Origin: a bacterium
Lineage (GTDB): Bacteria; Patescibacteriota; Microgenomatia; UBA1406; GWC2-37-13
Length of the DNA: 64,000 nt
Reading direction: 5' to 3'
Assembly (NCBI GenBank): GCA_021789995.1
Contig: JAJYIQ010000001.1
Coordinates: 434,001 to 498,000 of the forward strand
Positions within the stretch are counted from its first letter, which is position 1; every line of letters starts with the position of its first letter. Position numbers and translations under genes: made by a program. Under the pieces are notes generated by a model, which was not told the DNA's origin, did no database searches, and worked only from the letters and a program-made list of their open reading frames with translations. This document shows positions 34,505-37,011 of this stretch, piece after piece.

Positions 34505-34629
34505 AATGATATTATATCATTTTTCCCTTGACCCGCCTTCAAGATTCAGCTCATCGTTATCCGCTCGACGTCTTAAAGAGCGCTTACTGGCGGGCAATCA
34601 AAGGAAATTAATCCTATATGATTTTCCTC

Positions 34630-34676
34630 TTGCAAAGTGAACAACTGTTTACTATACTGGTGAACATATGCTTACT
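34630..34676 (+). promoter_or_regulatory. lexA promoter with two LexA-type operators
   Basis: TTGCAA (34630-34635), 17 nt, TATACT (34653-34658), ATG at 34668. Operator 1 GTGAACAACTGTTTACT (34637-34653) fills the spacer. Operator 2 GTGAACATATGCTTACT (34660-34676) covers the start point and ATG. The half-sites GTGAAC-N5-GTTTAC recur before the polymerase/SRAP pair at 36953-36991, so autoregulation by the LexA-like product is likely. Confidence 0.75.
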
Positions 34677-35324: not shown

Positions 35325-36578
35325 CTATGTAAAATACAGCTCTTCCAAATCCTTAACTCCCCCAAACGCTACCCGGTCGATAACAATATCCCGCGCTTCC
35401 ATCATCAATGCCGGCGTAATCACAAATTCGCCATACTTGTCGTTAATTGAATCCAGCGCATCGGAAACTTTCTTCTTCTTATCAGTATCCATTTCAAACA
35501 AACTGACTTGGGAATTTTTATTGGTAGCAAGATCATAGCAGCTGACCGACAATTTGGTCACTACTTTTCTCTCCGAACGCTGATTGAAAACCCATATTGC
35601 CTTCGTGAACAATTCCTGTGTTGTATACATCGGTTGATTAACTTTTCTTCCCCGGTGCCAGAAAGTCCAATCGTCATAAACGCAGGCGACGTGAATCCCC
35701 ATCGCCGCCTGTCCCGAATGCCGCAATCGCCGGCCCATCTTTTCACACAACTTCATCAGGATCCGCGCCAGCTCTTCCCGGTTGCCCGTCTTTTTTCCCA
35801 GAGCATAATCCTGGCCGTAGCTTTTGCGGGCAAACTCCACGTCATCCATTTCCCATCCCCGCAGCCGCCAATACCAGTGGTGGCCAACAATGCTTTGGAA
35901 AACCTGTTTTCTTAAAACAATCTCCGGCGCCGCCAAAAACTGCAATGGAGTAAAAATTCCGGCAACGTTCAACCGCGCTTCATAGCGGGTATTGATACCG
36001 TTCAGGTCCGTCAATTTTATTTGACCATAAACTTTTTCCAGGTTTTGATAATCGATGACGTCCAGCCCGTCGGGCTTATGGAGGGAAGCGGCCAGTTTGG
36101 CCAAAAACCGGTTCGGGGCGATGCCGACATTGCACGATATCCATTCGCCGATTTCCTTGCGGAAACGCGCTTTAATCTCCATTCCGATTTCCGTCAAACT
36201 CCGTTTTAAATAGTTGTCCATTCCCGTAAAGTCGATGACGACTTCGTCGATCGATTTGGGGACGACGACCGGCGAATAATCGCGGCAGATGTTTTTGAAT
36301 TTGATATGGACGTCACGCACCAGATTGGGGTCAGGATCGCGAACGATCACGTTGCGGCAGATCAGCCGGGCATCGCGGACGCTCATCCCCACTTTTATCC
36401 CCAGTTTTTTAGCTTCGATTGACGGCGAGATGACGCAGCCGCCCGGAGAAACATAAGCGGCAATGACCAATGGTTTGCCGCGAAGATGCATATTGGCCTG
36501 CTGCTCGACAGTCGCGAAGCAGGAATTCAGGTCGATATGCATGATGCTCGGTTTGTTATGGTTAAGAAGCGCTCCCAT
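35325..36578 (-). CDS. dinB: Y-family DNA polymerase (DinB/UmuC type)
   Basis: 417 residues. HIDLNSCFATVEQ carries the first metal-binding Asp, KSIDEVVIDFTGM the acidic Asp-Glu pair of the palm, and YISCN-like WISCNVGIAPNRFLAKLAA the finger/palm segment. A helix-hairpin-helix region and little-finger domain follow. QVSLFEMD near residue 363 matches the beta-clamp binding motif QxSLF. It performs error-prone translesion synthesis. Its ATG overlaps the small upstream gene by 17 nt, and LexA-type operators lie upstream, so SOS control is expected. Confidence 0.93.
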   Translation of the reverse strand: MGALLNHNKPSIMHIDLNSCFATVEQQANMHLRGKPLVIAAYVSPGGCVISPSIEAKKLGIKVGMSVRDARLICRNVIVRDPDPNLVRDVHIKFKNICRDYSPVVVPKSIDEVVIDFTGMDNYLKRSLTEIGMEIKARFRKEIGEWISCNVGIAPNRFLAKLAASLHKPDGLDVIDYQNLEKVYGQIKLTDLNGINTRYEARLNVAGIFTPLQFLAAPEIVLRKQVFQSIVGHHWYWRLRGWEMDDVEFARKSYGQDYALGKKTGNREELARILMKLCEKMGRRLRHSGQAAMGIHVACVYDDWTFWHRGRKVNQPMYTTQELFTKAIWVFNQRSERKVVTKLSVSCYDLATNKNSQVSLFEMDTDKKKKVSDALDSINDKYGEFVITPALMMEARDIVIDRVAFGGVKDLEELYFT

Positions 36579-36822
36579 CGGTCACCTCCTCCAGTGTCCA
36601 ATGGAGATTGCCGCTGTCCAGATGCAGCCGGAAATCGGTCGCCCCATCGGTCACATGGAAAACGTGTAATACGTTTCGTCCCTGTCTGACCCGGTGATAA
36701 TACGTCAGTTTTTTTATTAGGAAATCTTTGCCTAGCCAGCGGATTTTGCGCGGCATGACAACGCCGGTTTCCCGGTTATAGCTGGCGACGACGCTGATTT
36801 TTTCGTTGATGATTTCGTTCAT
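36562..36822 (-). CDS. Small protein translated ahead of the SOS polymerase (DUF6504-like?)
   Basis: 86 residues from ATG 36822. The frame is open to 36948, but that upstream part overlaps a structured leader and reads as low-quality sequence, so the shorter start is preferred. The product is beta-rich: PRKIRWLGKDFLIKKLTYYH, then NVLHVFHVTDGATDFRLHLD and LHWTLEEVTDG. The spacing of tryptophans and the final W-x-L-E-x-V pattern recall DUF6504, small proteins that accompany Y-family polymerases in Actinobacteria, but that link is tentative. It overlaps dinB by 17 nt and may be a polymerase accessory factor. Confidence 0.7.
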   Translation of the reverse strand: MNEIINEKISVVASYNRETGVVMPRKIRWLGKDFLIKKLTYYHRVRQGRNVLHVFHVTDGATDFRLHLDSGNLHWTLEEVTDGSAS

Positions 36823-36830
36823 AATAGTGG

Positions 36831-36932
36831 CAGCAGGTGTCGCGCAGTGAAAAGGTTCCGCGAGAAGCGGATTTCCGGAGTTGCCGGAAGAGCCTCGCAG
36901 CGGAAGAGGTTCACAAGCGACGGAATCTGCTG
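36831..36932 (-). ncRNA. Candidate structured RNA leader of the SOS polymerase operon
   Basis: On the transcript strand an outer stem CAGCAG/CTGCTG continues inward with GTCGC/GCGAC and GTGAA/TTCAC. It encloses three hairpins: CCTC/GAGG (36909-36893), TTCCGG/CCGGAA with a 5-nt loop (36889-36873) and CCGC/GCGG with a 5-nt loop (36870-36858). The whole is a cloverleaf-like four-way junction of about 100 nt lying between the operators and the start codon of the small gene. All pairings were read directly from the sequence. No known riboswitch or RNA family is recognised. Confidence 0.55.
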
Positions 36933-36952
36933 TAATTCTATTTATCAACGTG

Positions 36953-36991
36953 GTGAACCATTGTTTACCAGTGTAGTAAACATTTGTTCAC
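36953..36991. promoter_or_regulatory. Paired LexA-type operators between dinB operon and SRAP gene
   Basis: GTGAACCATTGTTTACC (36953-36969, plus strand) and AGTAAACATTTGTTCAC (36975-36991, the reverse complement orientation) match the two copies before lexA. The centres are 22 bp apart, about two helical turns, as in the lexA promoter (23 bp). They lie between the divergent units and overlap the -35 region of the SRAP promoter. Confidence 0.75.
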
Positions 36992-37011
36992 TTTTCAAGA
37001 GGCATTTGTAG

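Follow-up and report, generated by a model that had tools for sequence, protein, structure and literature searches.

The 102-nt palindromic sequence that precedes the polymerase operon in the 64,000-nt stretch of DNA analyzed here (the window) is, on sequence comparison and with a probability that we put at about 0.84, a copy of a mobile palindromic element, non-autonomous in kind, that is dispersed in Candidatus Roizmanbacteria (Patescibacteria). The copies of this element occupy unrelated positions, some orthologous positions are without one, and copies are found both in intergenic DNA and in frame within conserved genes. Apart from the open frames described below, the element was not seen to encode any protein.

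The window copy and its surroundings

The neighbors of the window element are lexA, a small 86-aa gene with a dinB-like polymerase, and an SRAP gene. The element lies between two SOS-like boxes (36953–36968 and 36976–36991) and the start codon of the 86-aa gene, whose ATG is 8 nt downstream, and its sense (S) orientation is that of the dinB operon transcript. The features are as follows.

36831–36932, minus strand: palindromic element with type A core, 102 nt (covariance-model match 111.2 bits, E 2.9e-28 in its own genome; fold z -5.63)
36927–36932, minus strand: 5′ arm of the variable outer stem, CAGCAG (S), pairing with 36831–36836
36831–36836, minus strand: 3′ arm of the variable outer stem, CTGCTG (S), pairing with 36927–36932
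36562–36948, minus strand: open frame that crosses the element and continues, with no change of frame, into the small gene (TTG start at 36948; ORF listing)
36562–36822, minus strand: small 86-aa gene of the polymerase operon, ATG at 36822 (tblastn counterparts)
35325–36578, minus strand: Y-family DNA polymerase, dinB-like (PF00817, E 2.5e-34; PF11799, E 7.7e-14)
36953–36968, no strand: SOS-operator-like palindrome GTGAACCATTGTTTAC (read from the sequence and pattern match)
36976–36991, no strand: SOS-operator-like palindrome GTAAACATTTGTTCAC (read from the sequence and pattern match)
36962–37002, minus strand: promoter/operator stretch, 90% identical (inverted) to the stretch before lexA at 34626–34666 (repeat search)

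The element folds as a single interrupted hairpin

Folded as RNA, the minus strand of the window element reached -42.6 kcal/mol, compared with a mean of -25.42 (sd 3.05) for shuffled sequence (z -5.63), and none of 200 shuffles folded as well. The plus strand with its flanks gave a z of -5.43, and the element as single-stranded DNA gave -4.04. A first-pass annotation had described a cloverleaf here, with outer stems CAGCAG/CTGCTG, GTCGC/GCGAC, and GTGAA/TTCAC closing a multi-branch structure that holds three hairpins. The outer stems are present, and the fold does beat shuffled sequence. We rejected the multi-branch topology, however, because the minimum-energy fold is one long hairpin with internal loops and because RNAalifold, given 37 type A copies, recovered the same rod de novo (31 pairs, 15 with double changes). 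(Types A, B, and C are labels coined in this analysis.) Of the three hairpins, the central one (TTCCGG/CCGGAA) was retained. The first and third, which compete with the inner rod pairs, were not: they form standard pairs in 75% of cases compared with 97% for the rod across the 37 copies, and in the third hairpin no pair changed on both sides and two of the five pairs were broken in 26 and 27 of the 37 copies.

With the 37 type A copies aligned by sequence, 94.1% of cells were standard pairs and 17 of 33 pairs had changed on both sides. Several rod pairs showed three or four pair types each, and the outer four stem pairs had changed on both sides in 9–20 of the 37 copies. The covariation score was 0.395 versus 0.139 in shuffles, values inflated by kinship among the copies, and it fell to 0.040–0.104 when partners were slid by 1–3 columns. 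This set consisted of type A copies, with one of three near-identical copies from genome G006; type B, type C, and minimal copies were left out.

An RNA kept on one strand would be expected to have many G-U pairs on that strand and few A-C pairs. Across the 37 copies we counted 55 GT cells on the S strand, 36 of which come from one constant pair, and the remaining 19 compare with 17 AC cells. This lack of strand preference points to selection at the DNA level, and the data fit a DNA hairpin as the object of selection, or else equal selection on the two strands. With only four copies, GT wobbles had seemed confined to the sense strand; with 37, they did not. No known Rfam RNA matched at the element among 4227 families at E up to 5.

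Copies are dispersed through one bacterial family

Searching the window's own genome (G000; 898136 bases in 4 contigs) by blastn with the surrounding 211 bases, we found two further copies, at 84% and 81% identity, as well as a match of 41 bases to the operator region of lexA. G001, of the same genus, has one copy, and the four copies can be aligned over their whole length. A covariance model built from these four (R1) detected exactly three copies in G000 at E up to 5. Across the family it gave, at E up to 0.01, 82 matches, which fall in 26 of 72 genomes and 12 of 34 genera. With only three copies in G000, recent activity in that lineage would be conjectural. A second model built from 37 copies (R2) was run on genomes drawn from the class and matched 12 of 372, of which 11 belong to this family and the last to a different family within the order; of 379 genomes drawn from the phylum it matched one, G000 itself. 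These searches indicate that the element is essentially restricted to this family and its near kin, with the qualification that model E-values are rough and that the large searches, run with stricter filters, miss weak matches; type B copies are probably under-counted by the models. The exact pattern of the outer module occurred in 11 stretches of the genome collection, ten in Candidatus Roizmanbacteria records and one in "bacterium isolate DBS2-5.bin32", and with one exact pattern no copy was found in viral contigs. The dispersed copies and their covariation support what the first-pass annotation had offered as a fallback, namely a DNA structure or a repeat.

We examined the surroundings of 78 copies: 66 of 68 model matches (two were dropped because the same place is present in two loci), ten copies from G048 and G049, and two short copies. 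A few weak R1 matches are not among them.

A separate AT-rich repeat (TTTGGAATTT-like) lies beside one of these copies (L017:1713–1836) and has many copies on both strands in several genomes of one genus (g10). It is a different entity, folding no better than shuffled sequence (z -0.08).

A constant outer module holds exchangeable cores within locus-specific repeats

Sixty-six copies with their flanks define a constant outer module, 5′ NNN-(C/T)AG-ATTC(T/C)GTC(A/G)CTCGTGA ... TCACTCG(C/T)GAC-ACCT-(A/G)-NNN 3′. The inner part is changeable, consisting of a type A, B, or C core or almost nothing. The type A core, present in the window, is CTGCGAGGCTC[stem]ATCCGCTTCTCG, and the type B core, from an alignment of 19, is CC(A/G)CCAGTGCTC[..]TGCGCGCTG. 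Copies range from 48 to 149 nt, with type C copies at about 140 nt and minimal copies, which have almost no inner part, at 48 nt (L063) or about 64 nt (L103, L114, L039). The type C copies (L061:2097–2238, L043:2406–2545, L068:675–814, L069:2027–2175) have an inner module unlike the others, about 100 nt long and containing its own repeats. The variable inner part prompted an integron attC-like reading, which we dropped because the copies are mostly solitary.

Perfect complementarity extends outward from the constant core by a mean of 5.06 bases in 66 copies, compared with 0.74 when the right flanks were shuffled (maximum 1.14 among 300 shuffles). Past the first three bases, the values were 3.29 and 0.71 for the 51 copies that pair over those three. 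This test covered 66 of the 78 copies, leaving out the ten from G048 and G049, whose flanks are fixed, and two whose flanks are repeated. In the outer 3–4 pairs, the terminal repeats vary from copy to copy. Most sites carry their own flanking inverted repeat and some have none.

The copies from G048 and G049 (L104–L112) make up a subfamily: at many sites their flanks are fixed and non-palindromic (TCTC-CAG ... CTG-TTCC), and four of them share a further conserved downstream stretch (GTAATTCGAAGCAGTATGCC-like).

Orthologous sites without the element

In the P-type ATPase, query residues 4–163 and 204–399 match directly adjoining stretches of the G001 ortholog, and 127 nt of DNA correspond to 7 nt in this genome of the same genus, a 120-nt insertion of 40 codons. 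The insert part of the ATPase query is also skipped in G027, G028, G030, G038, G039, and G047. In acetyl-CoA synthetase, a stretch of 164 nt in G004 corresponds to one of 50 nt in G003 (about 114 nt less), and the proteins align around the gap. In a glycosyltransferase loop compared across 14 loci, the stretch between anchors is short (12–18 nt) in G019, G021, G026, and G030, holds a type A copy in G024 and G035 and a type B copy in G015, and in G018 holds what by eye looks like a diverged type B copy; the remaining six loci carry other inserts of 30–129 nt. Where one loop holds copies in different genera (acetyl-CoA synthetase in G004 and G012; glycosyltransferase in G024, G035, and G015), these may have come down by descent and been rewritten, as opposed to having inserted independently. 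The genomes with empty sites differ by 10–30% in DNA, which makes the insertion boundaries uncertain, and no clean target-site duplication was readable at the sites compared.

As an observation in its own right, the glycosyltransferase loop (L171, L058, L172, L175, L177, L066) takes very unlike inserts from genome to genome, other small palindromes among them, and is a hot spot of in-frame insertion.

By eye, the empty ATPase site of G001, which differs from the filled site by about 12–19% in DNA, contains neither TGTTG nor CAACA. With the caveat of that divergence, this leans toward a repeat made on entry over entry into pre-existing palindromes. A fuller scheme can be drawn, in which a single-stranded hairpin moves, copies the target side in reverse, gains its own flanking inverted repeat, swaps inner cores, and spreads through essential genes via stop-free frames; we consider the scheme as a whole unlikely. 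Reverse copying of the target, if true, would be a mode of transposition unlike direct target-site duplication, and the locus-specific flanking inverted repeats offer a handle on how such elements insert.

Most copies inside genes are read in one element frame

Within open frames of at least 150 aa we found 28 of the 78 copies, a count that includes two with the element at the extreme 5′ edge (L054, L107), one possibly spurious ORF (L016), and non-independent rows (three G006 paralogs and G003; two copies each in a G048/G049 ortholog pair). Twenty-five of the 28 are read in one element frame, whose first full codon begins at the third base of the element, 6 of them in sense and 19 in antisense. 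Among type A copies, this frame is open in 34 of 37 in sense and 26 of 37 in antisense, compared with 13 of 148 for the other four frames, while shuffled sequence is open in 33%. For type B, the same two frames are each open in 16 of 19 copies and the others in 22 of 76; for the four type C copies, frame openness is not clear. These counts are non-independent trials, the copies of one family being related. The favored frames are not confined to genes: among the 24 type A copies outside the in-gene count, the sense frame is open in 22 and the antisense frame in 13. The frame that runs across the window element, which the first-pass annotation had called open and discounted as unlikely protein, is this same element frame. 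It is indeed open, and it is meaningful, since the copies inside genes are read in it.

We ran a Pfam scan on 20 host proteins, three of which (L020, one L044 paralog, and L034) had no match or a distant domain only. In eight, a single Pfam match spans the insert (residues).

P-type ATPase: match 98–318, insert 165–199
Glycosyltransferase L017: match 188–375, insert 223–256
Glycosyltransferase L066: match 162–360, insert 212–240
Radical SAM enzyme: match 134–354, insert 197–230
Methyltransferase: match 73–249, insert 129–162
Thymidylate kinase (Tmk): match 5–202, insert 76–92
Methionyl-tRNA formyltransferase (Fmt): match 11–209, insert 74–102
Peptide deformylase (PDF): match 3–191, insert 89–122

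In LepA, TyrRS, acetyl-CoA synthetase, and asparagine synthase, the insert lies between or beside matched domains. Homology to solved relatives breaks at the insert and resumes after it in LepA, TyrRS, PDF, and Fmt, and the thymidylate kinase has a short gap; the residues that border each break are given below.

LepA versus 2ywe: 195 then 225, against 189 then 193
TyrRS versus 8zmi: 217 then 276, against 249 then 251
Peptide deformylase versus 1ws0: 83 then 132, against 80 then 87
Methionyl-tRNA formyltransferase versus 4iqf: 72 then 109, against 64 then 83
Thymidylate kinase versus 2yof: 8-residue gap at the short insert

Because one frame per strand is nearly stop-free, insertions into genes could survive as added peptides, usually of about 30–40 residues, in tolerant loops. 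An alternative is that the element within a gene is spliced out or skipped by the ribosome and is never translated, which would account for a strong hairpin sitting in essential genes, even within catalytic domains. However, a fixed open frame kept through the element would be needless if the stretch were removed, and both favored frames are also open in most copies outside genes. We therefore regard removal as very unlikely and favor translation of the insert. On this reading, even such highly conserved enzymes as LepA, TyrRS, Fmt, Tmk, and peptide deformylase would gain extra peptides.

The element is not a conserved leader of the polymerase operon

The first-pass annotation had proposed a structured leader that controls the SOS polymerase operon, and the place of the element after the SOS operators and ahead of the first start codon, its orientation in the sense of the transcript, and its strong fold agree with a dedicated RNA leader. 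Of the 30 polymerase loci of the family, however, only three have a model match nearby, and 27 of the 29 loci other than the window have none. The window copy is sense and type A, and those of G004 and G038 have the opposite orientation and a type B core, about 32 nt and about 58 nt before the 86-aa gene. A leader in the orientation of the window was found in 1 of the 30 loci, the window itself. By eye, G002 (of the genus of G004) has an apparent deleted remnant of the element by its polymerase. Compensatory change is abundant, as would be looked for in homologous leaders before dinB, but it comes from dispersed copies at unrelated loci. Since most copies lie at such loci, many of them inside genes, and the wobble pairs show no strand preference, we judge a dedicated leader to be exceedingly improbable.

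A different possibility is that a mobile element was taken over as a regulator of this operon, as a useful by-product of its place in the 5′ untranslated region. The 86-aa gene has an element shortly before it in three genera, with two core types, and in G000 and G038 the element stands, by eye, between an SOS-operator-like sequence and the gene. Three of 30 loci seems to exceed chance; this pattern was noticed after the fact, and we attach no probability to it. Against such a role, the other two copies are oppositely oriented, and SOS-like boxes lie within 200 nt of only 2 of the 78 copies, indicating that SOS sites are no general target. On the sequences compared here, co-option appears doubtful.

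We favor a mobile element whose window copy would have inserted ahead of the coding part of the SOS-controlled polymerase operon, in its untranslated 5′ region, with 8 nt left to the first start codon. From there it could possibly affect expression of the operon; any such influence on translation or on the stability of the transcript would be incidental and not the reason for conservation of the structure. The case is a warning against taking such hairpins for regulatory leaders.

How the element may be mobilized

We infer that the element moves in trans as a DNA hairpin by means of a separate enzyme. One candidate, compatible with the mobile-element explanation, is a REP-associated tyrosine (Y1, HUH) transposase, the kind of enzyme proposed to move REP elements: Y1_Tnp genes are frequent, occurring in 52 of the 72 genomes of the family, and Y1 enzymes act on single-stranded hairpins (accessible text of PMC3733652). 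The link between gene and element is weak, however, with Y1_Tnp in 22 of 26 genomes that bear the element and in 30 of 46 that do not, and four genomes (G001, G019, G047, G048) have elements and no Y1_Tnp match. Furthermore, 24 of 25 Y1 loci have no element nearby by the model (the single match is about 2.4 kb away), and no GTAG or CGTC tag was seen by eye at a fixed end of the element in the 66 copies with flanks. Mobilization by this enzyme class is thus improbable in our estimation.

Relation to known palindromic elements

An open-access literature search, with subscription papers mostly outside its scope and hence weak as evidence of absence, returned no description of the Roizmanbacteria element. 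The closest likeness by behavior is to Rickettsia palindromic elements (RPE). To our knowledge, no enzyme that mobilizes RPE is known, and how they insert is an open question.

According to the portions available of PMC2229807 and PMC10969869, RPE are palindromic, dispersed, 105–146 bp or about 150 bp long, and present in intergenic regions as well as in frame within conserved protein-coding genes. The present element likewise is a palindrome of the order of 100–150 bp, in frame in many unrelated genes and intergenic too. In size and copy number it resembles that kind (102 nt in the window; 82 matches in 26 of 72 genomes; a covarying rod), as it does in its occupation of genes (28 of 78 copies, with empty sites and solved homologs). 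The comparison is one of description and not of sequence, and the element belongs to a different phylum. It also differs in having exchangeable cores and locus-specific flanking inverted repeats, features that look distinctive of the Roizmanbacteria element, and we saw no CGTC end of the sort that RPE are reported to have at one end (excerpt of PMC3733652). Palindromes that invade genes in frame are best known from Rickettsia, and cases from Wolbachia and Methanocaldococcus are named in a reference list (PMC2229807, in the part accessible). An unrelated-looking family in streamlined Patescibacteria suggests that the in-frame palindrome route of protein change arose more than once.

REP elements, as described in the available part of PMC3733652, are 20–40 bp long, palindromic, dispersed, sometimes inside genes, and marked by a GTAG or CGTC tag. 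The present element shares with the REP/RAYT system its palindromic and dispersed character and its occasional place in genes, and Y1 transposase genes abound in the family; it differs in being about 100 nt long, in lacking a GTAG/CGTC tag, and in not adjoining Y1 genes. We rejected membership because copies of 48–149 nt have no fixed tag at either end and 24 of 25 Y1 loci are unmatched. Bacterial MITEs (RUP, ERIC, Correia) are non-autonomous imperfect palindromes of about 100–200 bp (PMC2229807, as far as its accessible text goes) and in these respects are similar. In contrast to MITEs, we saw no TA target duplication, and the outermost pairs of the element vary by site yet stay complementary. 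Perfect inverted repeats inside protein genes are also described for Nematomorpha mitochondria (from the portion available of PMC6649704), a likeness in animal mitochondria for which we suggest no common origin.

The small gene and promoter of the polymerase operon

By tblastn, each of the 29 other polymerase loci compared in the family has a counterpart of the 86-aa gene (partial only in L142), and these counterparts mostly begin at the homologous residue, for which reason the true start of the gene is probably ATG 36822. An N-terminal extension from TTG 36948 is possible; the relatives are without the extension seen in the window frame. By eye, in most relatives either an SOS-like box stands just before the start of this gene, or lexA or another gene precedes it. 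We found no Pfam family for the 86-aa protein, and its only NCBIfam match was below threshold (ribosome hibernation factor, E 0.011). Kept in all 30 polymerase loci, it is an unnamed partner of the polymerase.

The promoters of lexA and of the polymerase are inverted copies of each other, 90% identical over 41 bases (34626–34666 and 36962–37002), and given this identity the SOS control region may itself have been duplicated.
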